64,000 nucleotides of DNA from Salipiger sp. H15 (GTDB taxonomy: Bacteria > Pseudomonadota > Alphaproteobacteria > Rhodobacterales > Rhodobacteraceae), in contig NZ_CP123388.1 in NCBI RefSeq assembly GCF_040409955.1, positions 1 to 64,000 on the forward strand, written 5' to 3'. This document shows positions 28,398 through 52,669 of the stretch, one piece after another; position 1 is the stretch's first letter, and each line of letters starts with the position of its first letter. The notes beneath the pieces were generated by a model. That model did no database searches. It was not told where the DNA came from and worked only from the letters and a program-made list of their open reading frames with translations. Made by a program: the position numbers and the translations under genes.

Positions 28398-30791
28398 CTA
28401 TTTCTCCGCCTCGGCCACGTGGTGCTTCACCGCAAGGAAGCTGTCCGGCGTGACCGAGATGCTGTCGATCCCCGCGCGCACCAGCAGCCGGGCGAAATCG
28501 GGATGGTTGCTGGGCGCCTGCCCGCAGAGCCCGATCTTGCGCCCGGCCTTGCGGGCCTTGGCGATCACCGTCTCGATCATCCACAGCACCGCCGGGTCGC
28601 GCTCGGAGAAGAGGCTCGCCAACGCCTCGGAGTCGCGGTCGACGCCGAGTGTCAGCTGGGTGAGATCGTTCGACCCGATCGAGAAGCCGTCGAAGCGCTC
28701 GGCAAAGGCCTCGGCCTCGATCACGTTCGAGGGGATCTCGCACATCACGTAGACCTCGAGCCCGTTCTCGCCGCGCCGCAGCCCGTGCTCGGCCATCACC
28801 TCGAGCACGCGGTCGGCCTCGCCCACGGTGCGGCAGAAGGGGATCATCACCACGGCGTTGTCGAAGCCGAGCGTCTCGCGCAGCCGCCGGATCGCCCGGC
28901 ATTCCAGCGCGAAACCGTCGCGGTAGGCCTCCGAGTAGTAGCGCGAGGCGCCGCGGAAGCCGATCATCGGGTTCTCCTCGCGCGGCTCGAAGGCCGCCCC
29001 GCCAAGCAGCCCGGCGTATTCATTGGTCTTGAAGTCGCTCATCCGGATGATCGCCGGGTTCGGGTACCAGGTGGCGGCGATGCGCGAGAGACCGCGGGCC
29101 AGCGTCTCGACGAAATACTCGGTCCGGTCGGCATGGCCGCGGGTGAGCCTGTCGATGGCGGCCCGGTCGGGCCCCTCGGGCAGGCTGTCGTAGCGCGTGA
29201 GCGCCAGCGGGTGGACCTTGACCTCGTTCGAGATCACGAACTCCATCCGCGCCAGCCCCACCCCGTCCGCCGGAAGCCGCCACCAGCGCATGGCCGCGGC
29301 CGGGTTGGCCATGTTGAGCATCACCTTGGTGCGGGTTCGCGGGATCTCGTCGAGCCGGGTCTCCTCGACCTCGAACTCGGCCTTCCCGGCGTAGATCACC
29401 CCCTCGTCGCCGCCCGCGCAGGAGACGGTGACCTGCTGGCCGTCGTGCAGGAGGTGGGTCGCGCTGCCGGTGCCGACGATCGCGGGCACGCCGAGCTCGC
29501 GGCTGATGATCGCCGCGTGCGAGGTGCGACCGCCGTGGTCGGTGACGATGGCCGCGGCGCGCTTCATGATCGGCACCCAGTCGGGATCGGTGGTCGATGT
29601 GACGAGCACCGCGCCATCCCGGAAGCGTCCGATCTCGGCGGCGCTCTCGATCAGGCAGACCTCGCCCGTCGCCACCGCGCCGCCGACGCTGAGCCCGGTG
29701 AGCAGCGGCGCGCCGGTCTTGCCGAGCCGGTAGCTGCGGAAGGCGTGACCGCCAACGCGCGACTGCACCGTCTCGGGCCGCGCCTGCACGATGTAGAGCG
29801 GGCCGCCCAGCCCGTCGCGCGCCCATTCCATGTCCATCGGCTGGCCGTAGTGGCGCTCGATCTTCACCGCCATGCGCGCAAGCTCGAGGATCTCGGCGTC
29901 CGACAGCACGAAGCCCTCGCGCTCGGCCTTCGAGGTCGGCACGTTGCGCGTCGGGGTCTCGGGGCCTGCGCCGTAGATCATCTTGATCTCCTTGGCCCCC
30001 AGCGCCTTGTGCAGGATCGGCACGAGACCCTCGCGCCCGAGGAAGGGCTTGTAGACCTGGTACTCGTCCGGGCTCAACGCCCCCTGCACCACGTTCTCGC
30101 CCAGCCCCCAGGCGGCATTGATCAGCACCAGCTTGTCGAAGCCGCTTTCGGTGTCGAGCGAGAACATCACCCCCGAGCCGCCCTCGTCCGAGCGCACCAT
30201 CTGCTGCACCCCGATCGAGAGCGCCACGGCGAGACTGTCGAAGCCCTTGATCTGCCGGTAGGTGATCGCGCGGTCGGTGAAGAGCGAGGCATAGCACCGC
30301 CGGCAGGCGGCGAGCAGCGCCGCCTCGCCGCGGATGTTGAGGAAGGTCTCCTGCTGGCCTGCGAAGCTGGCGTCGGGCAGGTCCTCGGCGGTGGCCGAGG
30401 AACGCACGGCAACGGCGGGCTCGGCCTCGCCGACGCGCTCGGCCAATGCACGATAGGCGGTGCGGATCGCGCTCTCGATCTCCTCGGGCCACTTGCCCGC
30501 CGCCAGCGCGGCGCGGATGCGCTGCCCCGCCTCGGCGAGCGGGATCCGCCCCTCGGCCAGCTGCCCGAGCTGGTCCGAGAGCACCGCGTCGAGCCCGTTG
30601 GCCGTCACGTAGCGGCGATAGGCGGCGGCGGTGGTGGCGAAGCCGGGCGGCACGCGGATGCCCTCGCCGCCGAGCCGGGACACCATCTCGCCGAGCGAGG
30701 CGTTCTTGCCGCCGACCTCTGGCACGTCGTCCCGCGTCAGATCCTCGAACCACTTCAGAACGGTCAAGCCGTCGCGCTGCAGAGCATCCAT
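28398..30791 (-). CDS. ppsA: Phosphoenolpyruvate synthase
   Basis: The 797-residue enzyme converts pyruvate + ATP + water to PEP + AMP + phosphate. The N-terminal ATP-grasp part starts with EVGGKNASLGEMV and includes AVRSSATAEDLPDASFAGQQETFLN. The central phosphohistidine domain has GGRTSHAAIISRELGVPAIVG with the catalytic His. The C-terminal PEP-binding barrel ends with CGQAPSNHPDFARLLVRAGID, including the catalytic Cys. Full family length. It lies convergent to no neighbour and is preceded by an FNR-like half-conserved site at 30846-30859, at the same distance seen for other stress-island genes. It may therefore support gluconeogenesis during oxygen limitation; that link is inference. Confidence 0.92.
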   Translation of the reverse strand: MDALQRDGLTVLKWFEDLTRDDVPEVGGKNASLGEMVSRLGGEGIRVPPGFATTAAAYRRYVTANGLDAVLSDQLGQLAEGRIPLAEAGQRIRAALAAGKWPEEIESAIRTAYRALAERVGEAEPAVAVRSSATAEDLPDASFAGQQETFLNIRGEAALLAACRRCYASLFTDRAITYRQIKGFDSLAVALSIGVQQMVRSDEGGSGVMFSLDTESGFDKLVLINAAWGLGENVVQGALSPDEYQVYKPFLGREGLVPILHKALGAKEIKMIYGAGPETPTRNVPTSKAEREGFVLSDAEILELARMAVKIERHYGQPMDMEWARDGLGGPLYIVQARPETVQSRVGGHAFRSYRLGKTGAPLLTGLSVGGAVATGEVCLIESAAEIGRFRDGAVLVTSTTDPDWVPIMKRAAAIVTDHGGRTSHAAIISRELGVPAIVGTGSATHLLHDGQQVTVSCAGGDEGVIYAGKAEFEVEETRLDEIPRTRTKVMLNMANPAAAMRWWRLPADGVGLARMEFVISNEVKVHPLALTRYDSLPEGPDRAAIDRLTRGHADRTEYFVETLARGLSRIAATWYPNPAIIRMSDFKTNEYAGLLGGAAFEPREENPMIGFRGASRYYSEAYRDGFALECRAIRRLRETLGFDNAVVMIPFCRTVGEADRVLEVMAEHGLRRGENGLEVYVMCEIPSNVIEAEAFAERFDGFSIGSNDLTQLTLGVDRDSEALASLFSERDPAVLWMIETVIAKARKAGRKIGLCGQAPSNHPDFARLLVRAGIDSISVTPDSFLAVKHHVAEAEK

Positions 30792-30845
30792 CCGTGCGTC
30801 CTCCCTCTCTGCGGCGGAGGATAGAGGCGCATGGGCGCGGCCGCC

Positions 30846-30859
30846 TTGACACCGCGCAA
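30846..30859. promoter_or_regulatory. FNR-like site before ppsA (imperfect)
   Basis: TTGACACCGCGCAA has a perfect TTGAC half and a degenerate second half. Its centre is 61 nt from the ppsA start codon, the same distance as the site before the first Hsp20 gene. Confidence 0.4.
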
Positions 30860-31197
30860 TGTGATGCGCCGAATTCGTCCCCGGCGCCCACCTACTCGCC
30901 GGGGGTCTCCTTCACCCTGTCGATCCCGAGGCCGACCAGTTCACGTTGCGCCGCGCCGCCGCGAAAGGCGGGAAAGGCGGGAAGCATCCTCGAGGAGGCT
31001 AAGGGCAGCGGCACCCGGTCGCGCAGCTTCACCCGGCGCAGCGGGGTGCACGCGCGCGGCCGCCGGGGCATCGCCGCGCAAGACACAATGCCGCCTGTCA
31101 ACCGGGCCTTTCCCGTGCTTCCTTCGTCTTCGAGAAACGCGCATGCTCGGGATGCCGAAGCTGCGAAGATCAATGGGCTTTCAGTCACGGAGACGCG
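30860..31197. other. Spacer between ppsA and metal ATPase
   Basis: The gap contains a weak FNR-like match (ATGCCGCCTGTCAA, 31088-31101), 97 nt before the ATPase start. A short minus-strand open frame (30892-31071, 59 residues, ending LVGLGIDRVKETPGE) has no clear ribosome site. I do not call the frame a gene, though its C-terminal part is protein-like. Confidence 0.35.
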
Positions 31198-33069
31198 ATG
31201 CCGACCCCGTCCGAGACCTTCAGTGCCGACCGATTGAAGACCGCGACACTGGCGCTGGCGCTGGCGGGGCTGGCCGCCGGGCTCGTCCTGCATCTCGCCG
31301 GCCAGCCCGCCGCCGCCCGGATCGCGTGGATCGCCGGCACGGTGCCGGCCCTCGCGGCGCTGCTGCTCGAGATCGTCGGCAGCATCCGGCGCGGCGAGGT
31401 CGGGCTCGACGTGCTGGCGGCGCTCTCCATGTCCTCCGCGCTGCTCTTCGGCGAGACCCTCGCCGCCTGCATCGTCGCGCTGATGTATTCCGGGGGCACG
31501 CTGCTCGAGAACATCGCCGAGGGCCGGGCACGACGGGAGATGCACACCCTGCTCTCCCGCGTGCCGCGTTTCGCGCTCCGGCACCGCGACGGGCAGATCG
31601 ACCGCGTGGCGCTCGACGAGATCGCGCCCGGCGACCGGCTGCTCATCCCGCAGGGCGACGTGGTGCCCGTCGATGGCACGGTTCTGTCGCCCGGCGCCTT
31701 TCTCGACACCTCGGCGCTGACCGGCGAGTCCCTGCCGCAGCGCCGCGCCATGGGCGGCGAGGCGCTGAGCGGCGCGACCAACGCGGGCGAGCCCTTCGAC
31801 ATGCTGGCCACGCGCCGCGCCGGGGAAAGCACCTACGCGGGCATCGTCCGCCTCGTCGAGGCGGCGCAGCGCTCGAAGGCGCCGATGGCCCGCCTCGCCG
31901 ACCGCTGGTCGCTGGGCTTCCTGCTGGTGGCGGTGGCGATCGCCGCGGCCGCGTGGTGGTCCGCCGCGGATCCGGTCCGGGCGGTGGCGGTGCTGGTGAT
32001 CGCGACGCCCTGCCCACTCATCCTCGCCGTCCCCGTCGCGCTGGTGGCGGGATTGTCGCGGGCGGCGCATTACGGCGTGCTGGTGAAGGGGGCAAAGCCG
32101 CTCGAGGCCATGGCCCGCGCGCGCAGCCTCGTGCTCGACAAGACCGGCACGCTGACCGACGGGCGGCCGCGGATCACCCGGATCGAGAGCGCGGGCCCCG
32201 TGACCGAGGAGGAGCTTCTGCGCCTCGCCGCCTCGCTCGACCAGGTCTCGAAACATCCGGTCGCGCAGGCGGTGGTCGAGGCGGCAAAGTCGCGCGGGAT
32301 CGCGCTTGCGACCCCATCCGAGGCGCGGGAGTCTCCCGGCGAAGGCGTCGCGGGCACGGTCGAGGGGCGCAGCGTCCGGGTCGGCGGCTTCAGCTACGTC
32401 CACGCCGCGCTCGAGGCCCCCGGCGCGGGCCCGGAGGCCCCGGGAGCGGGGGCGGTGGTCGTCGCGGTGGCGGTGGACGGCGCGGCCGCCGGGCACCTCG
32501 TGATGGCCGACCCGCTGCGCGCCGGCGCCGGCGCCGCGCTGCAGGCCCTGCGCAGCGAGGGGATCGCGCGCATCGTGCTGGCGACGGGCGACCGGCCGGA
32601 CGTGGCGGCGCGCGTGACCGACGGGCTCGGGCTCGACGCGGTGCATGCCGAGCTCACCCCGGACGAGAAGGTTGCGCTGGTGCTTTCGGAACGCGGCGCC
32701 GGGGCGACGATGATGGTCGGCGACGGGGTCAACGACGCGCCCGCGCTCGCGGCTGCGGACATCGGCGTCGCCATGGGCGCGCGCGGCGCGGGCGCCTCGG
32801 CCGAGGCGGCGGACGTGGTGCTGCTGGTGGACCGGATCGAGCCGCTGGTCGCCGGCATCGCCATCGCCCGCGCCGCGCGCCGCATCGCGCTGCAGAGCGT
32901 CATGGCGGGGATCGGGCTCTCGGTGATCGGCATGATCGCCGCGGCGCTGGGATATCTCGAGCCGGTCGAGGGCGCGCTGCTGCAGGAGGTGATCGACGTG
33001 GCGGTGATCCTCAACGCCCTGCGCGCCCTGCGCATCGCGCCGCCGGGCGTGCCGCAGGAGGTCACGTAG
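31198..33069 (+). CDS. Heavy-metal P1B-type ATPase, TPCP subtype
   Basis: The 623-residue cation pump has the actuator motif TGESLPQRR, the phosphorylation motif DKTGTLTDG (D314), the HP dipeptide of metal ATPases (KHPVAQAV) and the hinge GDGVNDAPALAAADIG. The transmembrane metal-site motif is T270-P-C-P-L instead of CPC/CPH/SPC. This resembles the TPC motif reported for the P1B-5 subgroup (nickel/iron efflux). There is no N-terminal metal-binding domain and no C-terminal hemerythrin domain, so the protein is short. It probably exports a transition metal. The stop overlaps the convergent helix-hairpin-helix gene by 8 nt. Confidence 0.85.
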   Translation: MPTPSETFSADRLKTATLALALAGLAAGLVLHLAGQPAAARIAWIAGTVPALAALLLEIVGSIRRGEVGLDVLAALSMSSALLFGETLAACIVALMYSGGTLLENIAEGRARREMHTLLSRVPRFALRHRDGQIDRVALDEIAPGDRLLIPQGDVVPVDGTVLSPGAFLDTSALTGESLPQRRAMGGEALSGATNAGEPFDMLATRRAGESTYAGIVRLVEAAQRSKAPMARLADRWSLGFLLVAVAIAAAAWWSAADPVRAVAVLVIATPCPLILAVPVALVAGLSRAAHYGVLVKGAKPLEAMARARSLVLDKTGTLTDGRPRITRIESAGPVTEEELLRLAASLDQVSKHPVAQAVVEAAKSRGIALATPSEARESPGEGVAGTVEGRSVRVGGFSYVHAALEAPGAGPEAPGAGAVVVAVAVDGAAAGHLVMADPLRAGAGAALQALRSEGIARIVLATGDRPDVAARVTDGLGLDAVHAELTPDEKVALVLSERGAGATMMVGDGVNDAPALAAADIGVAMGARGAGASAEAADVVLLVDRIEPLVAGIAIARAARRIALQSVMAGIGLSVIGMIAAALGYLEPVEGALLQEVIDVAVILNALRALRIAPPGVPQEVT

Positions 33070-33937
33070 CCGCGGCCGCCCTTTCCCCGTAATGCGTCGC
33101 GCAGTCCGCCTCGCGGCCGCGCACCACCCGCTTCCCGGCGAGCGGACCTCGGGTCTCGGTGACCACCGTCCGCTGCATCTCGGGACCGTCGCCTTCGTGG
33201 AAGAAGAGCGCCACCCAGTCCCGCGTCCGGCCAAGCTCGTGCGCCCGCGCCGTGTTGGAGAAAAGCGCCGTCAGATGCCAGTCGCCGCGGCGCAGGTGCA
33301 TCACCGGCAGCCACGCCTCGCCGCGCGGGTTGAACCGCCGCGGCCGGATCCGGCGCAACTGCCCCGCCGCCGCCTTCTCGCGGTAGAGCGCGTCGGCGTC
33401 GAGCAGCAGCGACACCGGCGGCTCGGCCCCGGGCGCCTGCCTGTCCCTGCCCCGCCGCATCGCCTGCAGCCGCTCCGAAAGCGCCGCGAGGATCGCCGCG
33501 CGCCTGCGGGGGCCGAGCCCGTCGAGCCTTACCCCGGGATCGTGCAGCGCGGTCTCGAGGTCCTCGAGGCTGTGGGCGCCGAGCGCTTCGGCAAATTTCG
33601 CCGCGAGCACCTCGCCGACACCGGGCAGGCTGCGGAACAGGGTCTCGGGCATCGCGCCCTGCCGCAGCCGGTCCAGCTGCGACCAGCGCCCGGTCTGCAG
33701 CATCTCGGCGATCCCCGCGGCGATGCCCCGGCCGATCCCCGGCAGCGCGATCAGCGCCGCGAGCCCGCCGTGCTCGAAGACCTCGCGCAGCGGAACATCG
33801 AGGGTCTCGGCCTCGTCCGCCGCCCGGCGATAGGCCCGGACGCGGAAGCCATCCTCGCCCTGCGCCTCGAGCAGATCCGCGTAGTCGCGCAGCTTGAGGG
33901 CAATCCGCCGGTTCTCGCGGGTCGGGTCTTCGGGCAT
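33062..33937 (-). CDS. Helix-hairpin-helix protein related to the N-terminus of PolX DNA polymerases
   Basis: The 291-residue protein starts like the 8-kDa and fingers part of family X polymerases: NRRIALKLRDYADLLEAQGED, FRVRAYRRAADEAETL, then helix-hairpin-helix motifs LPGIGRGIAAGIAEML and LPGVGEVLAAKFAEAL. No nucleotidyltransferase catalytic aspartates follow. Instead a conserved C-terminal domain of unknown role has FNPRGEAWLPVMHLRRGDWHLTALFSNTARAHELG. It probably binds DNA or participates in repair. The ATG at 33937 follows CAGGGGG; longer in-frame starts would cross the divergent promoter region. It is divergent from the CBS gene across three FNR-like sites. Confidence 0.75.
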   Translation of the reverse strand: MPEDPTRENRRIALKLRDYADLLEAQGEDGFRVRAYRRAADEAETLDVPLREVFEHGGLAALIALPGIGRGIAAGIAEMLQTGRWSQLDRLRQGAMPETLFRSLPGVGEVLAAKFAEALGAHSLEDLETALHDPGVRLDGLGPRRRAAILAALSERLQAMRRGRDRQAPGAEPPVSLLLDADALYREKAAAGQLRRIRPRRFNPRGEAWLPVMHLRRGDWHLTALFSNTARAHELGRTRDWVALFFHEGDGPEMQRTVVTETRGPLAGKRVVRGREADCATHYGERAAAAT

Positions 33938-34163
33938 GGGACCCCCTGTGGGTTGCAGGATGTCGCTCCGCCGGGAGCGCGGCGAGGATTGCCTGCGACG
34001 GTCCCCGGTCATGCGTTTGGGCTGCCGCGACCCGACGCCGCGGCAGCCTTCTGCTTCGCCTCGCCGACGTTCGCGGTCCGCGGTTGCGCGTCCCGGAACA
34101 GGCCCTTGTTCGGCGCGGCGACGTCTCCCCTCAAGACCGTGCCAGCCTCCGCGACGCGCGGCA

Positions 34164-34177
34164 TTGATCGCCGTCAA
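34164..34177. promoter_or_regulatory. FNR-like site 1 of the helix-hairpin-helix/CBS spacer
   Basis: TTGATCGCCGTCAA matches the TTGAY-N4-RTCAA pattern of Fnr/FixK-type regulators exactly. It is in the divergent spacer, 133 nt from the CBS start (centre 127) and about 233 nt from the helix-hairpin-helix start. Confidence 0.7.
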
Positions 34178-34201
34178 CGCACGCGCCGCGCCGGTCCCCC
34201 G

Positions 34202-34215
34202 TTGACCGGCATCAA
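34202..34215. promoter_or_regulatory. FNR-like site 2 of the helix-hairpin-helix/CBS spacer
   Basis: TTGACCGGCATCAA is an exact match to TTGAY-N4-RTCAA, with its centre 88 nt before the CBS-domain gene. Confidence 0.7.
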
Positions 34216-34226
34216 GCGGCGCGCGG

Positions 34227-34240
34227 ATGACGCCGGTCAA
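34227..34240. promoter_or_regulatory. FNR-like site 3 of the helix-hairpin-helix/CBS spacer
   Basis: ATGACGCCGGTCAA deviates by one base from the palindrome. Its centre is 63 nt before the CBS-domain start, the distance also seen at three other island genes. Confidence 0.6.
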
Positions 34241-34296
34241 TGCGCGCGGGCGGCGGCGCCGGATGATGGTCACACCCCCCAACGCAGGAGGCTGAA

Positions 34297-34716
34297 ATGA
34301 AAGTCAGCGAAGCCATGCATGCGCCGGCCGAATGGGTCAGCGCGGACACGCCCGTGTCGGAGATCGCCGCGCGGATGGCGCAGGACGATCTCGGCGCGGT
34401 GCCGATCGGTCGCGACGACCGTCTTGTCGGGATGATCACCGACCGCGATCTCGCTCTGCGCGTGGTGGGCGAGAAGCGCGACCCGGAAAGGACCCTCGCC
34501 GTCGAGGTCATGTCGCCGGGCATCGTCTATTGCAGCACCGAGGAAAGCGTCGAGGACGCGATCCACCTGATGGACCAGAAGCAGATCCGCAGGTTGCCGG
34601 TGCTCGACGAGGGCAAGCGGCTGGTCGGGATGCTGAGCCTTGGCGACATCGCCCACGCGGCCAGCCTGCAACTCGCCGGAGAGCTCACCCGCGCGATCTC
34701 CGCCCATCACCGCTAG
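34297..34716 (+). CDS. CBS-domain protein
   Basis: The 139-residue protein consists almost only of a CBS pair: first CBS about residues 1-60 (VSADTPVSEIAARMAQDDLGAVPIG, then GMITDRDLALRVV), second about 70-130 (MSPGIVYCSTEESVEDAIHLM, then RLPVLDEGKRLVGMLSLGDIAHA). Such free-standing CBS pairs sense adenine nucleotides; the mycobacterial hypoxic response protein Hrp1 is of this type. An AGGAGG ribosome site precedes the ATG. It heads a two-gene unit with the host-attachment-family gene and sits downstream of three FNR-like sites. Confidence 0.88.
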   Translation: MKVSEAMHAPAEWVSADTPVSEIAARMAQDDLGAVPIGRDDRLVGMITDRDLALRVVGEKRDPERTLAVEVMSPGIVYCSTEESVEDAIHLMDQKQIRRLPVLDEGKRLVGMLSLGDIAHAASLQLAGELTRAISAHHR

Positions 34717-34726
34717 GGAGGAACAG

Positions 34727-35170
34727 ATGAGATCCCCGAAGCTCTGGTACATCGTCATGAACGGGCACGAGGCCCGGGTGCTGCACGATCTTCTCGACGC
34801 GGGCCATCCCGAGCACAGCGAGACCGCGATTCACGGGCCCGCGCACGAGACGTGGAGGGACCGGCCGACGCGCAGCTACGCCTCGGCAAGGACCGGGCGG
34901 CGCTCGAACGTGGAGCCGGCGAGCGACGCGGGTCTCGAGGACAGCCGCGAATTTCTCCGCGAGGTATTCGAGCAGCTCGAACACCATCGCCAGCTTGGCG
35001 CCTTCGACGGGCTCGTGCTGATCGGCAGCCCCGACATCGTCGGCCTGTGGCGCGAGATGGTCCCCAAGTCCCTGCAGGGCACCGTGCGTCGCGAGATCGT
35101 CCGTAACCTGCTGAGCACGCCCCCCGCGCACCTGGCGGATGCGCTCCGCGACACGCTGGACCTCGACTAA
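34727..35170 (+). CDS. Host attachment-family protein (baeRF-like fold)
   Basis: The 147-residue protein resembles the protein family annotated as required for attachment to host cells: WYIVMNGHEARVLHD at the N-terminus, GLEDSREFLREVFEQLEHHRQLGAFDGLVLIGSPDIVGLWREMV in the middle, and a C-terminus with a VRNLLSTPPAHLADAL segment. The fold is related to eRF1/Dom34 domains that act on ribosomes, so a ribosome-associated stress role is more plausible than attachment; that is inference. The ATG at 34727 follows GGGAGGAAC and lies 10 nt after the CBS gene. Confidence 0.75.
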   Translation: MRSPKLWYIVMNGHEARVLHDLLDAGHPEHSETAIHGPAHETWRDRPTRSYASARTGRRSNVEPASDAGLEDSREFLREVFEQLEHHRQLGAFDGLVLIGSPDIVGLWREMVPKSLQGTVRREIVRNLLSTPPAHLADALRDTLDLD

Positions 35171-35327
35171 ACCGCGGAGTGGGAAACCCGGAGACAATTC
35201 CTTAAGATTGAGCTATCATCCTTCTATACTCTCAAGAGTTGTTAAACCACCCGACCACGAGCAAATTAGAATATTATTCCCGGCGCAATTCTCTGTTAAT
35301 ATATTCCCGCGTCAGGGAGTGGCATAT
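35171..35327 (+). promoter_or_regulatory. AT-rich promoter region before response regulator
   Basis: The base composition falls sharply here, with TTAAGATTGAGC, ATTAGAATATTATT and TTAATATATTCC runs. An inverted repeat ACTCT-CA-AGAGT lies at 35228-35239. A GTCAGGGAG ribosome site precedes the ATG at 35328. No FNR-like box is visible, so this gene may have separate control. Confidence 0.5.
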
Positions 35328-36080: not shown

Positions 36081-36238
36081 CGCCGGCCGCGCGGCGGGAT
36101 TGAATGAGGGCCGGCCCTCCCGCGCAATTTCACCGGAGGCTGCAATGGAAGGATCCCGCGATCACAGATTTCCGCGCATGGCGGAATTAAGTCCGCCCGT
36201 TCCGAATGGAATTGCCGGACACACCATTCAAAGGCGAC

Positions 36239-37818: not shown

Positions 37819-37905
37819 CGTGTCGCTCCTTTCGTGGCGGACGGGAGGGCCAGCGCGGCATCCCCCCATCTGTCGTCACAGTGACGCGAAGGCCGCGCGC
37901 GGGCA

Positions 37906-43140: not shown

Positions 43141-43268
43141 CGCCGCAGGCGTGCAATACCCGTCCACGGGCCGCGACCGGGGCTGTACCTGCGCCGCGCT
43201 TCGCTCCAAGATGGCCGTGATCATCGGCCCCGGCGGTCCGTGCCGCCCCACGCACGAAAGCAGCGATC

Positions 43269-45077: not shown

Positions 45078-46155
45078 GGACAGCACCGCCGCGCTGCGGC
45101 CGGGCGCCGACCAGCCGCTGTACCAGCCCTTCGGGATCCGCGTGGCGAAGAGCGCCCGGGGGCCCGTCGCGGTGACCGAGGAGGTGCTGCACGTCACCCC
45201 CTTCCACGCGCTCCGGCAGTTCGGGCTTGCCGGCCATCCGGGCGCGCCGCGCGTCCTGCTGGTGCCGCCGCTGTCCGGCCACCTGCCGGTGATCCTGCGC
45301 GACCTGGTGCTGGGCCTGCTCGGCGCGGGCATGGGCGTGACGGTGATCGACTGGGCCAACCTGCGCCATGTCGAGATCGGGCACGGCACCTTCGGCTTCG
45401 ACGACAACATCGGCACCATCGTCGACGCGGTGCTGCACGTCGGCCCGGGCACGCATCTGGTCGCGCTCTGCCAGGGCGGCGTGCCCGCGCTCGCGGCGAG
45501 CGCCGATCTTGCCGCGCATCTGCCGGGCTCAGAGCCCGCCAGCCTTGTCCTTCTCGCCGCCCCGGTCGACCCGCTCGCCAATCCCACGCCGCTCGTCCAG
45601 CTGCTGCGCGAGCGGCCCGCGTCCTGGTATCGCAGCGTGCCGCTCTCCCGCGTGCCGGAGGCCCATGCCGGCCACCGCCGGTGGGTCTACGCCGCCGAGA
45701 CCCAGCTCGCGGCGCTGACGCGCTACCTCGAAAGGGAGCTCGAGGCCGGGACCGAACTTGCCCGCAAGATGCGCGAGGACGACGGCGCGGATCCCTTGCG
45801 TTTCCCGTTCCGCGACCTTTACGGCGCGGTGATGGATCTCGACGCCCGGATCTTTGCCGAGAACATCGACCACGTCTTCCTGTCGCGGGACATCGCCGTG
45901 GGAACGCTCGAGTTCCGCGGCCGCCGCATCGACCCCGCCGCGCTCCGCCATACCCGGCTGATCACCGTCGAGGGCGCCGAGGACGAGATCGCCGCGCCGG
46001 GGCAGACCAGCGCCGCCCACGCGCTCTGCACCGGGCTTGCGCGGCGCGAGGAGCACACGCTGGTCATCCCCGGCTGCGGGCATTTCGGCCTGTTCCATGG
46101 CAGGCTCTGCCGCGAGAGCCTCTGCCCGACCCTCGCCGCGCTGATGCACACCTGA
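45061..46155 (+). CDS. phaZ: Intracellular polyhydroxyalkanoate depolymerase-like
   Basis: The 364-residue protein matches the cytoplasmic PHB depolymerase family: RVLLVPPLSGHLPVILRDLV, then VTVIDWANLRHVEIGHGTFGFDDNI, a Cys-type lipase box LVALCQGGVPAL with C137, and the C-terminal segment VEGAEDEIAAPGQT with IPGCGHFGLFHGRLC. The usual CQP has become CQG here. It would mobilise stored polymer. The start at 45061 lies inside the end of phaC (17-nt overlap), so both enzymes are produced from one message. It is convergent with the fusion esterase gene, 23 nt apart. Confidence 0.83.
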   Translation: MSSSAEDSTAALRPGADQPLYQPFGIRVAKSARGPVAVTEEVLHVTPFHALRQFGLAGHPGAPRVLLVPPLSGHLPVILRDLVLGLLGAGMGVTVIDWANLRHVEIGHGTFGFDDNIGTIVDAVLHVGPGTHLVALCQGGVPALAASADLAAHLPGSEPASLVLLAAPVDPLANPTPLVQLLRERPASWYRSVPLSRVPEAHAGHRRWVYAAETQLAALTRYLERELEAGTELARKMREDDGADPLRFPFRDLYGAVMDLDARIFAENIDHVFLSRDIAVGTLEFRGRRIDPAALRHTRLITVEGAEDEIAAPGQTSAAHALCTGLARREEHTLVIPGCGHFGLFHGRLCRESLCPTLAALMHT

Positions 46156-46178
46156 AAAGCGCTCCGCCTAGAGGCCGA

Positions 46179-48836
46179 CTAGAGGCCGAAGGGATAGGTC
46201 TCCTCCTCTCCGGCGATCACCCGCGTCGGGACCGGCGTCACCGCCCGCGTCTCGTCGAACCAGACGAAGGCGTCGTACTGGTCCGGCAGCGTGGCGTGGG
46301 AATAATGGCTCCAGCGCTCGGTCTCGGGGCGGTAGATGACGCCGATGTAGCGCTCGAGCCGGGGATCGCGCAGGGCGCGCCGCAGCGCCGGGTCCATGTC
46401 GCGCCCCATGTCGAGCAGGAAGCGCGGCTCGCCGACGCCGTGGAACAGCGCCTCGTAGCTGTCGGGCCGCGACGGGCGCACCGCCTTCACCTCCATTGGC
46501 GCATCCCATTCGGAGGCCGCCGCCACGGTGCCGCCATGCGTGCCAAAGCCGATCAGCACCGCCTGCCGGCCAAATTCCTCGCGGCAGAGCTGGCCGATGT
46601 TCAGCTCGCCGCGCGCGCTGCCCATGTCGGTGAACCGGGCGTCGCCGATATGCGAGTTGTGCGCCCAGACCACGGCCCTGGACTCGGGGCCCGCGCGGTC
46701 GAGCACGCGCCTCAGCGTCTCGAACATGTGGCTGTCGCGCAGGTTCCAGGATTCATGCGAGCCGTAGTACATCACGCGGTAATAGCGCTCGGCATTGGCC
46801 ACCAGTCGGGCATTCTGCACCGCGTCGAAGAAGTCGTCCCCGTCGCGCGCGGCGTAGTGCAGCTCGCTTTGCAGCAGGTCGAGCAGCGTGCGCATCACCG
46901 GCGCCTCGCAGAGCGCGTAGCCCCGGCTCAGCGAGGCGCGCCCGTAGGCCGAGAGCTCCTGCGACCAGGGGTCGATGCAGGCATAGCGCTTGCGGGCCTC
47001 CTTCGCCGCGGCCGGATCGACGCGGTCGAGATATTCCAGAACCGCCGCGATCGAGGCGGTCATGCTGTAGAGATCGAGCCCGGTGAAGCGCACCTGCTCG
47101 TCGGGTTCCACCTTGGCATTGTGGTCCCGCAGGCTGGCGACGAATTCGTCGAACTCGCGGTTGCGCCACATCCAGGCCGGGAAGCGCGTGAAGGGCACGC
47201 GCCGCGAGGAAGCGCCGGGCTTGCCGCGGATATGCCGGTCGATCGCCGCCGCATCCGGCCAGTCCGCCTCGGCCGCGACGAGGGTGAAGCCGTGCCTCTC
47301 GATCAGGCGCCGGGTGATGGCGGCGCGGGCGCGGTAGAATTCCGAGCTGCCGTGCGAGGCTTCGCCCAGCAGGACGACCCGCGCCGAGCCGTAGTCGTCG
47401 AAGGCCGCGCCGAAGGAGGGATCCTCGGGCTCGGGCAGCGGGTTCACCGCGGCGCGCAGGGCGGCGACGATCTCGTCCGGGCCGCGCAGATGCTCCTCCG
47501 GGCGCGGATGCACCGCCTCGGGCGAGAGCTGCAGGTAATGCTCGAACCAGGTGCAGGCCATGTCCGTCGCCGCCTCGAGCGTGCCCGGCTCCTCGAAGAG
47601 ATGGCTCGCGCCCGGCACGATCTTCAGCAGCTTCTCGCAGGTGAGCGCATAGAGCGCCTGCCGGTTCAGCGTCAGCACATGCCCATCGTTGCCGCCGACG
47701 ATCAGCAGCGTCGGTGCGGTCACCCTTCCGAGGTGGGCCCCGGCAAGGTCGGGCCTGCCCCCGCGCGAGACGACGGCGCCGATGCGCGGGCCAAGCTCGC
47801 CCGCCGCGACCAGCGCCGCCGCGGCCCCCGTGCTGGCCCCGAAAAGGCCGACCGGCAGCTCCGCGACATCGGGCTCGCCGCCGACGTAGGCGACGGCCTC
47901 GACCACCCGCTCGGCGAGGAGGGGGATGTCGAAGACGTTGCGCCGGTCCTGCGCCTCGTGCGGCGTCAGCAGATCGAAGAGCAGCGTCGCGAAGCCGCGC
48001 GCGTTCAGCACCTCGGCCACCGCGCGGTTGCGCGGGCTGAGCCGGCTCGAGCCGCTGCCATGGGCGAAGATCACCAGCCCGCGCGGATCGGCGGGGACCG
48101 CGAGCTCTCCGGCAAGCGACAGGGGCGGCACCGACACGCTGCGGCGCGAGAGCGCGGCCCTCGGTTCCGGCGCGGCCTCTTCCGCCCAGGCCTGCCGCAA
48201 GAGGCCAAGGGTCTCCTCGTCGCTGAGCTGGTGGAAGTCGTCGTAGAACCCGCCCACGCCGTAGAACCTCGACGCCGGGATCAGGCAGACCACGCGGTCG
48301 GCCAGCCCGGCGAACTCCTCCGCCACCCGGGCCGGCGCGACGGGGACCGCGACGCAGATGCTGCTCGCCCCCTGCCGCCGCATCGCGATGATCGCCGCCT
48401 TCATCGTGGCGCCGGTGGCGAGCCCGTCATCGACGATCACCGCGGTCCGCCCCTTGGGGGACACCTGCCTGCGGTCGCCGAGGTAGCGGGTCCGGCGGCG
48501 TTCCAGCTCCTGCAGCTCGCGTGCCCGGGCCCTTTCGAGGTAGGAGGTGTCGCCGCCGGAGCTGCGCAGCACGTCCTCGTTGATCACCGTCTGCGGCGTC
48601 TCGCCGTCGACGATGGCCCCGAGGGCAACCTCGGGCGCGCCCGGCGCGCCGATCTTGCGCACGAAGATCAGGTCGAGCGGCGCCCGCAATGCCCGCGCCA
48701 CCTCGAGCGCGACCGGGACACCGCCGCGCGGCAGTGCGTAGACGACCGGCTGGTCCAGCCCCATCGACGCAAGGCGGGACGCAAGGCGGCGCCCGGCCTC
48801 CCTGCGATCCGCAAAGCGCTCCGATCCCTCAGCCAT
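46179..48836 (-). CDS. Phosphoribosyltransferase / alpha-beta hydrolase / erythromycin-esterase fusion protein
   Basis: The 885-residue protein joins three domains. Residues about 1-215 are a type I phosphoribosyltransferase fold (FVRKIGAPGAPEVALGAIV, PRPP loop VIVDDGLATGATM). Residues about 225-435 are a dienelactone-hydrolase-like domain with GLVIFAHGSGSS, nucleophile box GLFGASTGAAAAL and GASHLFEEPG. Residues about 450-885 are an erythromycin-esterase/EreA-like domain with VVLLGEASHGSSEFYRAR, AADWPDAAAIDRHIRG-like and VVWAHNSHIGDAR motifs. The mycobacterial DosR-regulon protein Rv2030c combines the first and third domain types. The ATG at 48836 follows GGGAGGG. Function is unknown; drug inactivation should not be assumed. 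Confidence 0.85.
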   Translation of the reverse strand: MAEGSERFADRREAGRRLASRLASMGLDQPVVYALPRGGVPVALEVARALRAPLDLIFVRKIGAPGAPEVALGAIVDGETPQTVINEDVLRSSGGDTSYLERARARELQELERRRTRYLGDRRQVSPKGRTAVIVDDGLATGATMKAAIIAMRRQGASSICVAVPVAPARVAEEFAGLADRVVCLIPASRFYGVGGFYDDFHQLSDEETLGLLRQAWAEEAAPEPRAALSRRSVSVPPLSLAGELAVPADPRGLVIFAHGSGSSRLSPRNRAVAEVLNARGFATLLFDLLTPHEAQDRRNVFDIPLLAERVVEAVAYVGGEPDVAELPVGLFGASTGAAAALVAAGELGPRIGAVVSRGGRPDLAGAHLGRVTAPTLLIVGGNDGHVLTLNRQALYALTCEKLLKIVPGASHLFEEPGTLEAATDMACTWFEHYLQLSPEAVHPRPEEHLRGPDEIVAALRAAVNPLPEPEDPSFGAAFDDYGSARVVLLGEASHGSSEFYRARAAITRRLIERHGFTLVAAEADWPDAAAIDRHIRGKPGASSRRVPFTRFPAWMWRNREFDEFVASLRDHNAKVEPDEQVRFTGLDLYSMTASIAAVLEYLDRVDPAAAKEARKRYACIDPWSQELSAYGRASLSRGYALCEAPVMRTLLDLLQSELHYAARDGDDFFDAVQNARLVANAERYYRVMYYGSHESWNLRDSHMFETLRRVLDRAGPESRAVVWAHNSHIGDARFTDMGSARGELNIGQLCREEFGRQAVLIGFGTHGGTVAAASEWDAPMEVKAVRPSRPDSYEALFHGVGEPRFLLDMGRDMDPALRRALRDPRLERYIGVIYRPETERWSHYSHATLPDQYDAFVWFDETRAVTPVPTRVIAGEEETYPFGL

Positions 48837-48942
48837 TCCGTGACCCTCCCCGCCAGACGGACACCCCCGGGGTGAAGGCCATTGAAGGATGGATCCGCGC
48901 CGAGAGCCGGGGACAGTCTTGCACGAAACGCGCCCGGCCATC

Positions 48943-48956
48943 TTGACCGCGGTCAT
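48943..48956. promoter_or_regulatory. FNR-like site before the three-domain fusion gene
   Basis: TTGACCGCGGTCAT differs from a perfect palindrome by one base. Its centre is 113 nt before the fusion gene's ATG on the minus strand, between that gene and the end of the kinase gene. Confidence 0.6.
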
Positions 48957-48971
48957 TGTGACGGGGGCTGG

Positions 48972-51875
48972 TCAGCCGCCGGGGCGCGCCAGCAGGCTGC
49001 CGAGGGCCTGCGCGAGATCCTGCAACCGGTAGGGCTTGGTCAGCACCGGCACCCCTGCCGAGGGATCCTCCGCGCTCGCCGGGCTGGTCTCGGAGCTGTA
49101 GCCGGTGGTCAGCAGCACCTCGATGCCCGGGAAATCGGACAGGATCCTGCGCGCGAGATCACGGCCGCTCAGCTCGCCGGGCATCACGACATCGCTGAAC
49201 ACCAGCCGGATGTCCTCATGCGTCCGCAGGATCGCGAGCGCCTCCTCGGCGTCCACGGCTTCGAGAACCCGGTAGCCGAGCGCCTGCACGCGGCCCCTGG
49301 TCGCATCCCGCACGGCCTTCTGGTCCTCGACGACGAGGATGAGCGGCTCGGTGTCGCTGGCCCGCCGCTTCGGCAGGATCGCGTGGCCGGGCGCGCCGGC
49401 GTCGCGCCTGATGCCGGACCGCGGGAAATAGAGCCGGAAGGTCGTGCCCCGCCCCGGCGCGCTGTCGAAGTCGAGGAATCCGCCGGACTGGTGCATCATG
49501 CTGTTCACGCTGAAGAGGCCGAGGCCCACCCCGGTCCCGTGCCGCTTGGTCGAGAAGAACGGCTCCAGCGCCTGCCGTCGAACCTCCTCGGTCATGCCCG
49601 TGCCCTCGTCGGAGACGGAGAGGCAGACGTAATCCCCCGGCTTCGCCTGCGCGATCCCGAGCGCCGCGATTGCCGCAGCGGGGGCGTTCGAGGTGGCCAG
49701 CCGTATCTCGCCACCGTCGGGCATCGCGTCGCGCGCGTTGACGACGAGGTTGAGGATGAGGCTGTCGACATGGGCCGGGTCGACGAAACAGGGCCAGAGA
49801 TCCTCGGCGAGATCCAGCACCAGCGTGAAGCGCTCGCCGATCGAGCGATCGAGGAACCCGGCCGTCTCCCTGACGAGGTTGTTCATCGAATCCTCCTCGG
49901 GGCGCATCGGGACCTGGCCCGCCCAGGTGACGAGCCGCTGGTTCAGCCGCTCGCCGAGCTGCGCCGCCTTCAGCGCCTTGTCGAGATACTCGATCCTCTC
50001 CTCGGCCGAGGTGCGTATCTCGGAAAGCTCGATATTGCCGATGATGACCGTCAGCAGGTTGTTGAAATCATGCGCGATCGCCCCCGCAAGACGGCCCGCC
50101 GCCTCGAGCCGCTGCGAATGCGCGAGCGCCTCGACGGCCTGGCGGTGGGCGGTCGTGTCGCTGGCCGCGCCGAACCACTCGACGATCCCGCCACCCTCGT
50201 CCAGCAGGGGGATGGCGCGCGAGAAGGTCCAGCCGAGCGTCCCGTCGGGTCGCAGGACGCGGTGCTCGAGCTGGAAGGCGCTCTTGCTCTCGATGGCCCG
50301 CCGGATCGCCTCCATGACCTCGGCCCGGTCTTCCGGCGGAACGTAGGTGGCAAGCCAGTCCGTCGTCGGCTCGGAGGTGTCGTGGACGATCCCCCGCCCG
50401 TCCAGCTGCCACATGATCCGCCAGTCCGGGCTCATCCGGTAGACCACTTCCGAGGTCGCGGTGACGAGGGCCCGCAACCGCTCCTCGCTCTCGCGCATCA
50501 CCTTCACCGAGCGGGCCCGCACCACCGCCGACCAGGTGCGCTCGGCCACCTCCTCGATGAGGCTGACCTCGTGCGGCGTCCAGGGAAACTCCCGCGCCCG
50601 GGCGACGCCCAGGACGGCCACGAGCCTGTCGTCCTTGACCATGGGCACGGCCACGGAGGCGAGCGCGTCGCATGCGGCATCGCCGGGCTCCGCCCCGCAC
50701 CCGGCATCGCCGCCGATGACAACCGTCCGCCCGGCCTCGAGCGCCGCGCGGCTCTGCCCGTGCAGGTCCGGGATCGGCAGGGCGCCGGAAGCGCAGACAG
50801 GCCCGGCCCGGCGGAATTCGCGCGAAACCACGTAATCCTCGCCATCCACTTCCGCGTAGGTGACCAGGTCGGCGCCAAGCTCCTGCGTCAGCAGCTCGCA
50901 CCCGGCGCTCATCACCGCCGTCGGATCGCCGAGAGGGCGCAGCCGGTCATAGCAGCGCAGCAGGAATTCCTTGCGGGCCTCGCTCTCGCGCAGGGCATCC
51001 TCGTCGCGCTTGCGCCGCGTCACGTCGCGGATCACCGCCATCAGGTTGCGCCCCGACCCGTCCTCGATGCGCGCCACGAACATCTCCAGCACCATGCCCT
51101 GCGGCACCGATCCGCGCTCGAACCGGACCGCCTTGCCGGTGTCGAGCACATGGTCGTAATCGTCGTACCAGTCCTCGACCTCGTCGGGAAAGTTGTCGCG
51201 GATCGACTGCCCGCTCAGATCGGGAATGCCGAACATCGCCTGCATCGCGGGGTTCATCGTGATGTAGCGGTAGTCGCGCAGCCCGTCCGGGCGGAGCGGC
51301 AGCCGCTCGAAGACGCAGACCGCCTCGTCCATCGCGTCGACCAGCGTGCGGTAGCGCGTCTGGCCGGCGCTCAGGCTGGCTTCGGCGCGGGCGTGCTCCA
51401 CCGCCGACCAGATCCGGTCCGCGACCTCCTTGAGCATGGCAGTCTCGGCGTGGCTCCAGTCGCGCGGCGCCCGATCCGCGATGCAGAGCGCGGCGACCAG
51501 CCGTCCTGACTTGAGGAGGGGCGTTGCCATCCACGACAGGAGATCCGGCTCAAGGGTCGGCGGATGCTGCCGCCCCTCGGACCGCGGGAAGCCACGTCTG
51601 CCCGAAACGACCTGCGCCTCGGCGCCGCGAAGGGTCTCCGGCAACCAGTCGAAATCGGCCAGCGCCTCGTCGCCTGCCGGGGAGGCCCCGCCGACACGCA
51701 CGGCAGGGCGCGTCTCGTCGATCTCGAGGTACCAGGCGCGCGCGACCCCGAGGTGCTCTGCCAGCATGCGGCAGGCGGCGGCCTCGATCCCGGCAGGGTC
51801 CGAGATCGGCCGGATCGCGTCGGAAAGGCGCAGCAGGAAGCCGAGCCGATCCTCTCTGCCGTTGCCGTCACCCAT
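48972..51875 (-). CDS. Hybrid sensor histidine kinase (GAF-PAS-GAF-PAS-HisKA-HATPase-REC)
   Basis: The 967-residue cytosolic kinase has no membrane helix. GAF (about 10-170), PAS (about 180-300, with TMNPAMQAMFGIPD), a second GAF (about 315-475) and a second PAS (about 485-600) are followed by the H-box LAGAIAHDFNNLLTVIIGNIE, N-box LVVNARDAMPDGGE, G-boxes SDEGTGMTEEV and GVGLGLFSVNSMM, and a C-terminal receiver with LVFSDVVMPGE. GAF/PAS domains could sense redox or small molecules; no heme-ligand signature is assigned. The ATG at 51875 is inferred; the in-frame GTG upstream has no ribosome site. A nearby orphan OmpR regulator could be a partner. Confidence 0.87.
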   Translation of the reverse strand: MGDGNGREDRLGFLLRLSDAIRPISDPAGIEAAACRMLAEHLGVARAWYLEIDETRPAVRVGGASPAGDEALADFDWLPETLRGAEAQVVSGRRGFPRSEGRQHPPTLEPDLLSWMATPLLKSGRLVAALCIADRAPRDWSHAETAMLKEVADRIWSAVEHARAEASLSAGQTRYRTLVDAMDEAVCVFERLPLRPDGLRDYRYITMNPAMQAMFGIPDLSGQSIRDNFPDEVEDWYDDYDHVLDTGKAVRFERGSVPQGMVLEMFVARIEDGSGRNLMAVIRDVTRRKRDEDALRESEARKEFLLRCYDRLRPLGDPTAVMSAGCELLTQELGADLVTYAEVDGEDYVVSREFRRAGPVCASGALPIPDLHGQSRAALEAGRTVVIGGDAGCGAEPGDAACDALASVAVPMVKDDRLVAVLGVARAREFPWTPHEVSLIEEVAERTWSAVVRARSVKVMRESEERLRALVTATSEVVYRMSPDWRIMWQLDGRGIVHDTSEPTTDWLATYVPPEDRAEVMEAIRRAIESKSAFQLEHRVLRPDGTLGWTFSRAIPLLDEGGGIVEWFGAASDTTAHRQAVEALAHSQRLEAAGRLAGAIAHDFNNLLTVIIGNIELSEIRTSAEERIEYLDKALKAAQLGERLNQRLVTWAGQVPMRPEEDSMNNLVRETAGFLDRSIGERFTLVLDLAEDLWPCFVDPAHVDSLILNLVVNARDAMPDGGEIRLATSNAPAAAIAALGIAQAKPGDYVCLSVSDEGTGMTEEVRRQALEPFFSTKRHGTGVGLGLFSVNSMMHQSGGFLDFDSAPGRGTTFRLYFPRSGIRRDAGAPGHAILPKRRASDTEPLILVVEDQKAVRDATRGRVQALGYRVLEAVDAEEALAILRTHEDIRLVFSDVVMPGELSGRDLARRILSDFPGIEVLLTTGYSSETSPASAEDPSAGVPVLTKPYRLQDLAQALGSLLARPGG

Positions 51876-52000
51876 GCCGCCGTTCCATCGCTGCCCGAAG
51901 GGTCGAGGTTCCGGCCCCAAGGTAATCGCCGCCCGCGTGACTGCCAAACGAAATGGCCGCCGGGAAGCGGTTTTCGGAATGCCGAGAGACGACCCGGGGA

Positions 52001-52014
52001 TTGACGGCGGACAA
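52001..52014. promoter_or_regulatory. FNR-like site (variant) before the hybrid kinase
   Basis: TTGACGGCGGACAA carries the GACAA variant second half and is centred about 132 nt before the kinase start on the minus strand. The flanking bases (ATTGAC...ACAATG) extend the symmetry seen at other sites. Confidence 0.45.
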
Positions 52015-52669
52015 TGCCGCGGCGGCGGGTTCGTGCGACGCTATTCTCATCGTTGAGCGGCGCAGGCCCCGGTGACGTGCATGTCCTTGCCCCCGGACAA
52101 GGCCCTGCACGGGCGATCGGGGAGGCGCAGGCTCATCGGTCGGGGCTGCCACCCCACCGGAGGGTCGTTCGGGAGAGACCTCGAAGCCCGAAGGGTCCGT
52201 GGCAGCCTTCGCTCCGCCCGGGTTCAGCATCCTTCAGGGCGGAGCCAAGCGACAGCCGGCGTGCGGTGCCGCCATGCAGGCGCTCGGCGCATGCGTTCGG
52301 CAATTGGCGGGAGACACGCCGACTGTCGCACCGCCCCTCGGTATCGGGCCCCGGATTTGCCCTCGCACGCGCAGCCGCGCCATTGACCGCCGTCAATGGC
52401 GGCGGCGCGTTGTGCGTTACCCTGGCCCCATCGGACCATCCCTCCGCCGGCAACGGGGCAGGCAGTGAGCCTCTGCACGTGAGTGGGGCCCTCGCCCGGC
52501 GTCGAGATGATGGCCCGGTCCACGCAGCGCCCTGCGTGGTGACGGGGAGACCGGTCGCGGCCGCGCGATGCCAAAGTCGCGGAGGTCGTACCGGCGCTGC
52601 GCCGCGGCTCTTCCACAGGGAGGGGAAGGCCGCGGCGCATCCCTCTTCCGCGTGCCCCGGCAGGGCATC
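52015..52669. other. 655-nt spacer without a recognisable gene
   Basis: Open frames exist on both strands, but their translations are arginine/proline-rich without motifs, hydrophobic pattern or a good ribosome site, so I call none. The only clear structure is the perfect FNR-like palindrome at 52383-52396. A small RNA or a decayed gene is possible. Confidence 0.5.
52383..52396. promoter_or_regulatory. Perfect FNR-like palindrome with no obvious target
   Basis: The extended sequence CATTGACCGCCGTCAATG (52381-52398) is a perfect 7+4+7 inverted repeat, the best copy in the window. No gene start lies within 250 nt on either side. Confidence 0.7.

Follow-up and report, generated by a model that had tools for sequence, protein, structure and literature searches.

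A stress-survival island with FNR-type boxes, its own FNR paralogue and a probable role under low oxygen in Salipiger sp. H15

The first 64 kb of contig C5 (NZ_CP123388.1; 255,257 bases) of Salipiger sp. H15, which form the whole stretch of DNA analysed here and are referred to as the window, carry an island of 18 genes in Pfam scans, both flanking genes counted. As judged from its sequence, the island is a stress-survival block with FNR-type boxes at most promoters and an FNR paralogue of its own, and it probably constitutes an FNR-controlled low-oxygen survival regulon, held as one block on a 255-kb contig that may be a plasmid or chromid of the 6.1-Mb, seven-contig genome. The direct basis of this reading is gene content, the cysteine and recognition-helix signatures of the regulator, box enrichment, conserved footprints, and partial recurrence in other genera. 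The initial annotation had listed a CBS protein, a universal stress protein (USP), two Hsp20 proteins, Lon, a PRTase-erythromycin-esterase fusion (PRT-Ere), a P-type ATPase, phosphoenolpyruvate (PEP) synthase, a polyhydroxyalkanoate (PHA) synthase and depolymerase, DUF2267, regulators and a kinase, all of which were recovered by Pfam or NCBIfam, and had placed them around an Fnr-type switch. The switch is borne out by the FNR cysteine signature of the regulator and by FNR-type palindromes that stand at most island promoters and are rare elsewhere in the window.

Two motifs were used, a core (TTG-N8-CAA) and a strict box (TTGAY-N4-RTCAA). With the core and the Y/R form of the box chosen post hoc, once the first matches had been seen, the core occurs ten times in the window, and all ten sites lie in the intergenic DNA of the island, which makes up 3,251 of the 64,000 bases. 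The strict box occurs 27 times in the 6.1-Mb genome, compared with four occurrences of a reversed-pattern control; five of the 27 fall in the island and none elsewhere on contig C5, with 0.11 expected in 24 kb (P about 1e-7). Allowing up to one mismatch, the window holds 13 sites versus 1.4 expected from shuffles, and 11 of the 13 lie within 34164-52396; one of these, the one-mismatch site at 40396 inside lon, is probably there by chance.

The sites fall promoter by promoter, with gene starts in the window taken from a home-made codon-based caller and gene families from Pfam. Ahead of the free CBS-pair protein (34297-34716, plus strand, with AGGAGG upstream) and the adjoining baeRF12/Host_attach family protein (34727-35170, plus) there are three, two of them exact (TTGATCGCCGTCAA, 34164-34177; TTGACCGGCATCAA, 34202-34215) and one with a single mismatch (ATGACGCCGGTCAA, 34227-34240). 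The USP gene (36239-37078, plus; 279 residues, with the Usp domain matched C-terminally) has one, a one-mismatch box upstream (ATGACGACCGTCAA, 36064-36077). Two precede the Hsp20-Lon pair, namely a one-mismatch box (TTGACTGCCGACAA, 37906-37919) and a CRP/FNR-core site of the form TTG-N8-CAA that is partly conserved in Alloyangia mangrovi (TTGCGCGCCGACAA, 37965-37978); this Hsp20 is a weak match (38033-38437, plus; 22.4 bits, cut-off 20.8) that overlaps the start of the Lon protease (38434-40824, plus; NCBIfam TIGR00763 above cut-off). The DUF2267 protein (40843-41268, minus), a sequence relative of the solved structure 2ysk (TTHA1432), and the divergent Hsp20-fnr-phaC-phaZ genes have two exact boxes in common, TTGACCAAGGTCAA (41328-41341), 59 bp before the DUF2267 start, and TTGACCATCATCAA (41381-41394), which faces Hsp20-fnr-phaC-phaZ. 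The second group comprises a strong Hsp20 match (41559-42089, plus), the FNR-type regulator (42244-43140, plus), a PHA synthase (PhaC; 43269-45077, plus), nearest class I and below the cut-off of the NCBIfam class I model, and a PhaZ-like PHA depolymerase (45061-46155, plus; NCBIfam match sub-cut-off). One site, with one mismatch, lies upstream of the PRT-Ere gene (TTGACCGCGGTCAT, 48943-48956). The promoter of the hybrid histidine kinase (48972-51875, minus; GAF, PAS, HisKA, HATPase and receiver domains) has three core sites, one of them exact; the boxes there include TTGACGGCGGACAA (52001-52014, one mismatch) upstream of the kinase and TTGACCGCCGTCAA (52383-52396, exact) about 0.5 kb upstream of it. 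Three open reading frames in or near 51876-52669 (52014-52718, plus; 52224-52640, minus; 51868-52230, minus), considered as genes that might account for the box at 52383, match no family. A further core site, at 30846, lies between the PEP synthase and P-type ATPase genes. No box with up to two mismatches lies directly before the OmpR, fnr or phaC genes, in line with possible read-through from upstream promoters.

The regulator combines a cNMP-binding fold (PF00027, 40.1 bits) with a Crp-type helix-turn-helix (PF13545, 46.5 bits), both over cut-off, and its best match in the PDB is an "FNR type regulator" (9qlt). Its N-terminal cysteines, CRHCAARRSGFC, follow the pattern CX2CX7C with spacing equal to that of the genome's own FnrL (C1:458796), which carries N-terminal cysteines and the recognition helix ETVSR, and a fourth, central cysteine lies in VCWMP, aligned with VCEIP of FNR. 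The regulator scores 68.4 bits with the FnrL equivalog model NF045989, where the cut-off is 300, and it is therefore classed by sequence as FNR-type and not as FnrL; the model for Caulobacter-type FixK (NF050806) gives 59.5 bits, also below a cut-off of 300. Among 11 subfamily copies (that of the window and 10 relatives, leaving out FnrL and two other Crp/Fnr genes of locus L065), CX2CX7C is kept in nine and the fourth cysteine in all, while the recognition helix reads ETLCR in ten and ETFCR in L046. Here and below, L-numbers denote the loci or neighborhoods compared, among them L006 from Poseidonocella and L020 from Alloyangia mangrovi, and G-numbers the genomes compared. At E<=1e-30 the regulator is matched in 6 of the order's 292 genomes, the one that holds the window among them, and in a class-wide sample, in which close relatives are thin, the ETLCR regulator was found at E<=1e-25 in one genome of 385, the window's own.

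Conserved footprints surround several of the boxes. The DUF2267-Hsp20 spacers of the window and of Poseidonocella L006 differ widely, and both boxes are kept; TTGACNATCATCAATGCGC, at the Hsp20-facing box, is common to the two with one spacer base differing. The USP box sits in a 21-bp block (GGATGACGACCGTCAATGACG) found unchanged in L020 of Alloyangia mangrovi, where the flanks diverge, and the upstream block with the PRT-Ere box aligns to similar blocks in L020 and L018. Before Hsp20-Lon, the site at 37965 has an L020 counterpart and the box at 37906 has none there.

Recurrence was followed through DUF2267 (PF10025), which is matched at E<=0.001 in 81 of the 292 genomes of the order, in 74 above cut-off. 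Thirty loci were compared (30 of the best 31, from 92 matches, the one left out being a second copy in one genome), and in 17 of them an exact box precedes the domain by no more than 300 bp; these 17 span 12 genera and are hence not 17 independent events. Box density upstream of DUF2267 is 1,889 per Mb versus 10 per Mb (four sites) in 400 kb of comparison regions, and the control family PF10116 has a box within 300 bp upstream at none of 30 loci. In other families of the class a box is present at 4 of 26 loci, four own-family loci out of 30 being left out. Twenty 20-kb regions centred on DUF2267 contain 59 boxes, compared with 4 in 20 regions of the same genomes that were placed by hand at round coordinates and not randomly drawn. 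Boxes were known beforehand in genomes G238 and G176; with both removed, the counts become 15 of 28 loci and 48 boxes in 18 regions. In 15 of the 30 loci (for example L082, L084, L086, L089, L091, L093, L097-L101, L104 and L109) the distance from an exact box to the domain is 114-140 bases, and in six others (L088, L094, L102, L105, L107 and L108) the box lies about 1.3-1.45 kb upstream, as it would at the head of an operon.

Other island families gather around DUF2267 in these regions. Matches are present in the DUF2267-centred versus the comparison regions (20 each) for the hybrid kinase in 13 versus 1, USP in 9 versus 1, Hsp20 in 9 versus 1, Crp/Fnr in 5 versus 0 (identity just 22-23% in three of these), PRTase in 4 versus 0, CBS in 3 versus 0 and baeRF12 in 2 versus 0. 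The picture is less clear for OmpR (12 versus 6) and the P-type ATPase (5 versus 2), and there is no enrichment for Lon (0 versus 1), PhaC (1 versus 1), PhaZ (0 versus 0), PEP synthase (1 versus 0) or HHH_8 (1 versus 1); five of the 20 regions (L189-L193) hold no other queried island gene. Exact boxes were sought around gene starts, extrapolated from partial alignments, over a span of 350 bp before and 30 bp inside each gene, and were found at 13 of 20 DUF2267 genes, 8 of 9 Hsp20, 5 of 6 P-type ATPase, 3 of 3 CBS and 4 of 11 USP genes, at 1 of 5 Crp/Fnr, 1 of 4 PRTase and 2 of 10 ABC genes, and at none of 13 kinase, 13 OmpR and 2 baeRF12 genes or of the single PhaC, HHH_8, PEP synthase and 37480-type genes. 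The kinase and OmpR genes serve here as an internal negative control, and the result also indicates that they are not box-driven in relatives, unlike the kinase of the window. We rejected the view that Host_attach/baeRF12 belongs to the regulon generally: the 30 best loci of this family have no box within 300 bp upstream and two sites in 102 kb; this set excludes the window copy (the own-genome entry is C1:2898746) and has no bearing on island copies. In L040-L043, L046 and 12 of the 20 DUF2267 regions the hybrid kinase and OmpR genes adjoin and converge; they are a probable signalling pair and stand apart in the window; the part of the kinase common to relatives is HisKA-HATPase-receiver.

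The neighborhoods of the regulator and of PRT-Ere were compared as well. Around the regulator, L040-L043 and L046 contain mixes of Hsp20, CBS, baeRF12, DUF2267, USP and P-type ATPase genes, a PRTase without the esterase part, and the convergent hybrid-kinase/OmpR pair. Exact boxes in these neighborhoods, out of those in the whole genome, number 7 of 19 at L042 (G238, 20 kb), 3 of 32 at L046 and 1 of 24 at L041. The gene order is DUF2267, Hsp20, fnr, phaC, USP and PRT-Ere in L006, and Hsp20, Lon, fixK, kinase and a PhoB-type regulator on plasmid pLA6_003 of strain La 6. For PRT-Ere, an exact box lies up to 600 bp upstream at 11 of 31 loci (kept from 42, the window not among them) and is absent at 20; the 18.6 kb upstream hold 12 sites, the remaining 580 kb 31 (P 5e-9). 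Within this set L017 and L064, equal in length, are apparently one contig, and L005 and L019, both from Mesorhizobium, share the same box. The 11 loci dropped (L023, L028, L029, L041, L042, L046 and L072-L076) had a weak match or no PRTase start. In six loci (L008, L010, L014, L022, L067 and L069) the box lies 119-121 bases before the aligned start. Part of the families named in the initial annotation is found clustered in other genera, contrary to the lack of conserved clustering that would have spoken against its reading, and the recurrent core consists of DUF2267, Hsp20, USP, CBS, PRTase and kinase. Outside that core lie Lon and phaCZ, additions that few relatives have (Lon in L018, L020 and L079; PhaC in L006, L018, L020 and L204).

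Two of these relatives have features of their own. In L042, boxes stand just before the genes of two proteins (2040-2246 and 2432-2773), a small one with an EF-hand and one with SPW repeats, and 12186-12836 encodes a triple-BON protein. The 104-kb contig C5 of G203 (L065 is its stretch 34000-53900) holds 6 of that genome's 13 boxes and one more at 16867, in the surroundings of PRT-Ere, CBS, HHH_8 and a further two Crp/Fnr-like genes; it may represent another type of island, under different regulators.

We infer cluster binding, an oxygen response, the direction of regulation, operon structure and which FNR protein binds. In the mechanism we propose, the island regulator, predicted to hold an oxygen-labile iron-sulfur cluster, would become a DNA-binding dimer as oxygen falls and would bind the TTGAY-N4-RTCAA palindromes at island promoters. 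Binding would switch on CBS-baeRF12, Hsp20-Lon, DUF2267, USP, PRT-Ere and probably the hybrid kinase. It would also switch on Hsp20-fnr-phaC-phaZ, so that the switch would reinforce itself and link carbon storage with the protection of proteins. Some of the island boxes are probably read by chromosomal FnrL as well.

Several observations weigh against this reading. PEP synthase and the P-type ATPase have no box at zero or one mismatch (30740-31260), the OmpR gene has no box of its own in the window, and the USP and PRT-Ere boxes in the window are one-mismatch only. The ETLCR regulator and a similar cluster occur in G100 (L040) and G220 (L043) with no exact box in 20 kb (0 of 17 and 0 of 33 in the genome), and two subfamily copies, L044 and L045 (both G238), lack the second cysteine and have no box and none of the queried island genes nearby. 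The regulator, the fusion and DUF2267 are unmatched, at the thresholds used, in three genomes of the same genus, which marks the island as accessory. One plasmid of Salipiger sp. CCB-MM3 carries a relative of ppsA and a different one a relative of PRT-Ere, the latter without annotated island neighbors. As for membership, PEP synthase, which lacks a box at zero or one mismatch, is doubtful as a member and is probably rather a neighbor, and Lon and phaCZ lie outside the recurrent core.

The strongest alternative, which we nevertheless consider doubtful, is that the boxes are read by chromosomal FnrL only, with the island regulator answering another signal (nitric oxide, redox or none) or acting on other targets. 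FnrL, with its own N-terminal cysteines and a different helix, is present in the genome, and DUF2267 boxes also occur in genomes without an ETLCR-type match (E<=1e-30). FnrL sites in Rhodobacter sphaeroides mix TTGAC and TTGAT half-sites (PMC2908626), and because they include TTGAC half-sites FnrL alone could drive the island, a further point against the main reading. Set against this alternative are the position of the regulator gene after an Hsp20 behind paired boxes, an order that L006 shares, and the lean of the island boxes to TTGAC. In G000, G238 and G176 together, 27 of 32 half-sites in islands are TTGAC, compared with 54 of 124 elsewhere (P 2e-5 in a Fisher test in which half-sites are not independent); in G000 and G238 the counts are 22 of 26 versus 28 of 66 (P 2e-4), and in single genomes the lean has P 0.004 in G238, 0.07 in G000 and 0.08 in G176. 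The lean fits a regulator with a changed recognition helix, without proving it. We rejected a clean split of TTGAC and TTGAT between two regulators, which is not significant in G000 or G176 alone and sits poorly with published FnrL sites that mix both.

It is unlikely that the block is a general stress or heavy-metal island under EcfG, RpoH or metal control, for which oxygen would be at most one signal. Hsp20, Lon, USP and the metal P-type ATPase would suit such an island, and the GAF and PAS domains of the kinase could sense something else; the FNR-type boxes at most island promoters argue against it. A strict EcfG site is absent from the window, which has one loose match at 46723, inside the PRT-Ere gene, and no RpoH-like site occurs in the island, the only one in the window lying outside it at 60525. 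We set aside EcfG or RpoH control for want of convincing sites in the island, an absence that is weak evidence. It is very improbable that the block is a collection of unconnected stress genes on an accessory replicon, without a common function and with coincidental boxes: the neighboring ABC-transporter genes are unrelated and a close PRT-Ere relative sits on a Salipiger plasmid away from annotated island genes, but box density and placement, footprints and co-clustering in other genera all speak against coincidence.

DosR is a LuxR/NarL-type response regulator with its own operator (core GGGAC-N4-GTCCC), and its kinases DosS and DosT carry haem-GAF domains. The initial annotation gives the CBS protein Hrp1 and CtpF as DosR members; neither name was found in PMC5309233. 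The DosR-linked Hsp20 (HspX) and Rv2030c, of the PRTase/erythromycin-esterase superfamily, are hypoxia-induced (PMC4410610). The island shares with this system the gene kinds Hsp20, USP and PRTase-esterase, a likeness in content only. Its hybrid kinase carries GAF domains. In contrast, the island has an FNR-type regulator and boxes where the DosR system has a response regulator, and its genes form one block where DosR genes form nine (PMC5309233). The palindrome GGGAC-N4-GTCCC has no match in the window, and a looser form has four matches, none in the island; no LuxR-type regulator was found among the island proteins scanned, whose only free response regulator is OmpR-type. We therefore rejected membership in a DosR regulon. 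The counterpart to DosR proposed in the initial annotation holds for likeness in gene content and does not extend to operators or regulator type: the island is DosR-like in content and probably in role, and is not a DosR regulon.

The island resembles the lxa locus and FnrL, FixK and FnrN regulons at least as much as it resembles DosR. The lxa locus of Burkholderia cenocepacia (BCAM0275-BCAM0323) is a block upregulated in low oxygen for which Anr-like BCAM0049 has been proposed as regulator, and it too unites a heat-shock protein, USP and a PHB gene (phbB) (PMC6127331, PMC9104464); it also has a BON protein, as the relative island L042 has its triple-BON protein. According to the same sources, the genes of lxa number about 50 and include six USPs, cytochrome c, phosphate acetyl/butyryl transferase and alcohol dehydrogenase, whereas Pfam scans of the 18 genes here find none of these beyond one USP, and BCAM0049 lies outside lxa, whereas the FNR-type regulator lies inside the island. 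The alphaproteobacterial FnrL, FixK and FnrN regulons have the same box type and several of the same targets: the predicted FixK regulon includes Hsp20 and a CBS-domain protein, the predicted FNR regulon a USP and a P-type ATPase, and FnrL of R. sphaeroides has a chromatin immunoprecipitation peak at phbC (PMC2908626), FnrL of Dinoroseobacter shibae directly activates three USP genes (PMC5398030), and for a Rhizobium leguminosarum Hsp20 that carries a pair of anaeroboxes (one of them imperfect) FnrN-dependent microaerobic induction is about 50-fold (PMC11784457). USPs are likewise under an oxygen-sensing regulator, Anr, in Pseudomonas aeruginosa (PMC6127331), and in Myxococcus, NmpRSTU controls a USP together with genes for CBS-domain proteins, with a link to oxygen (PMC11841059). 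Pieces are known already, as Hsp20, CBS, USP and P-type ATPase in predicted FixK or FNR regulons and as the lxa block. In those sources, however, FnrL, FixK and FnrN targets are listed singly under chromosomal or general regulators, whereas the island genes stand together in a single block that has an FNR paralogue belonging to a separate subfamily, and DUF2267, Lon, PRT-Ere and phaCZ in addition. Stress-gene terms are absent from the main text of a comparative study of FixK and FnrN in Alphaproteobacteria (PMC4999443), and the combined island is undescribed in the open-licence literature searched, where DUF2267 is named in one paper, on haloarchaeal annotation.

The remaining genes complete the block. 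PEP synthase (ppsA; 28398-30791, minus) flanks it, followed by a possible member, a heavy-metal P-type ATPase of the cadmium family (31198-33069, plus; NCBIfam TIGR01525 and TIGR01512 above cut-off). Two members had gone unnamed in the initial annotation, the baeRF12/Host_attach protein and an HHH_8 protein that resembles the N terminus of DNA polymerase X (33062-33937, minus; NCBIfam PRK08609 sub-cut-off), homologs of which lie near PRT-Ere in L022, L029 and L065. The OmpR-type response regulator is encoded at 35328-36080 (plus). Two small proteins follow the USP gene, one (37070-37483, minus) with only a sub-cut-off match to Holin-X (PF07332, 23.7 versus 28.4 bits) and one (37480-37869, minus) with no family in Pfam or NCBIfam scans, so the label "DUF883-like" of the initial annotation, probably meant for the first of these, finds no support. 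Two of the genome's four Hsp20 matches lie in the island. The PRT-Ere fusion (46179 to about 48839, minus, its start inferred from homology) has PRTase, alpha/beta-hydrolase-like and erythromycin-esterase parts, with sub-cut-off matches only for the middle one; its closest named relatives are in Alloyangia mangrovi (91%, best segment) and Salipiger mangrovisoli (84%), followed by Ruegeria, Poseidonocella and others at about 73-74%. The window has no match to Rfam at the gathering threshold and none in a tRNA scan. Outside the island, 15671-21411 (5.7 kb) has little convincing coding, with an 87-residue aldo/keto-reductase-like piece at 16583-16846 (minus), and possibly consists of decayed genes; a LacI-type regulator beside a sugar ABC operon is split over two frames (27441-28322 and 27227-27652, minus strand), likely through a frameshift or sequence error.

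Taken further, and only tentatively, since we hold the combined proposal to be somewhat less than evenly likely, these results suggest that different phyla independently assembled a similar low-oxygen kit of Hsp20, USP, CBS, PRTase-esterase, metal ATPase and storage-polymer enzymes under unrelated regulators, that some Rhodobacterales lineages have a dedicated, self-amplifying ETLCR FNR subfamily with an operator preference for TTGAC-N4-GTCAA, partly insulated from FnrL, and that DUF2267 is widely FNR-box-controlled and functions in survival without oxygen. If the island is the regulon we propose, it provides a functional context for DUF2267 and the PRT-Ere fusion, which both carry oxygen-type operators in several genera. 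In that case, parts of the mycobacterial dormancy program would be a kit that lends itself to reuse, both under the control of an unrelated oxygen switch and in the form of an accessory block, and environmental bacteria would offer a setting for testing an Rv2030c-like protein, Hsp20, USP and CBS proteins in anoxic survival.

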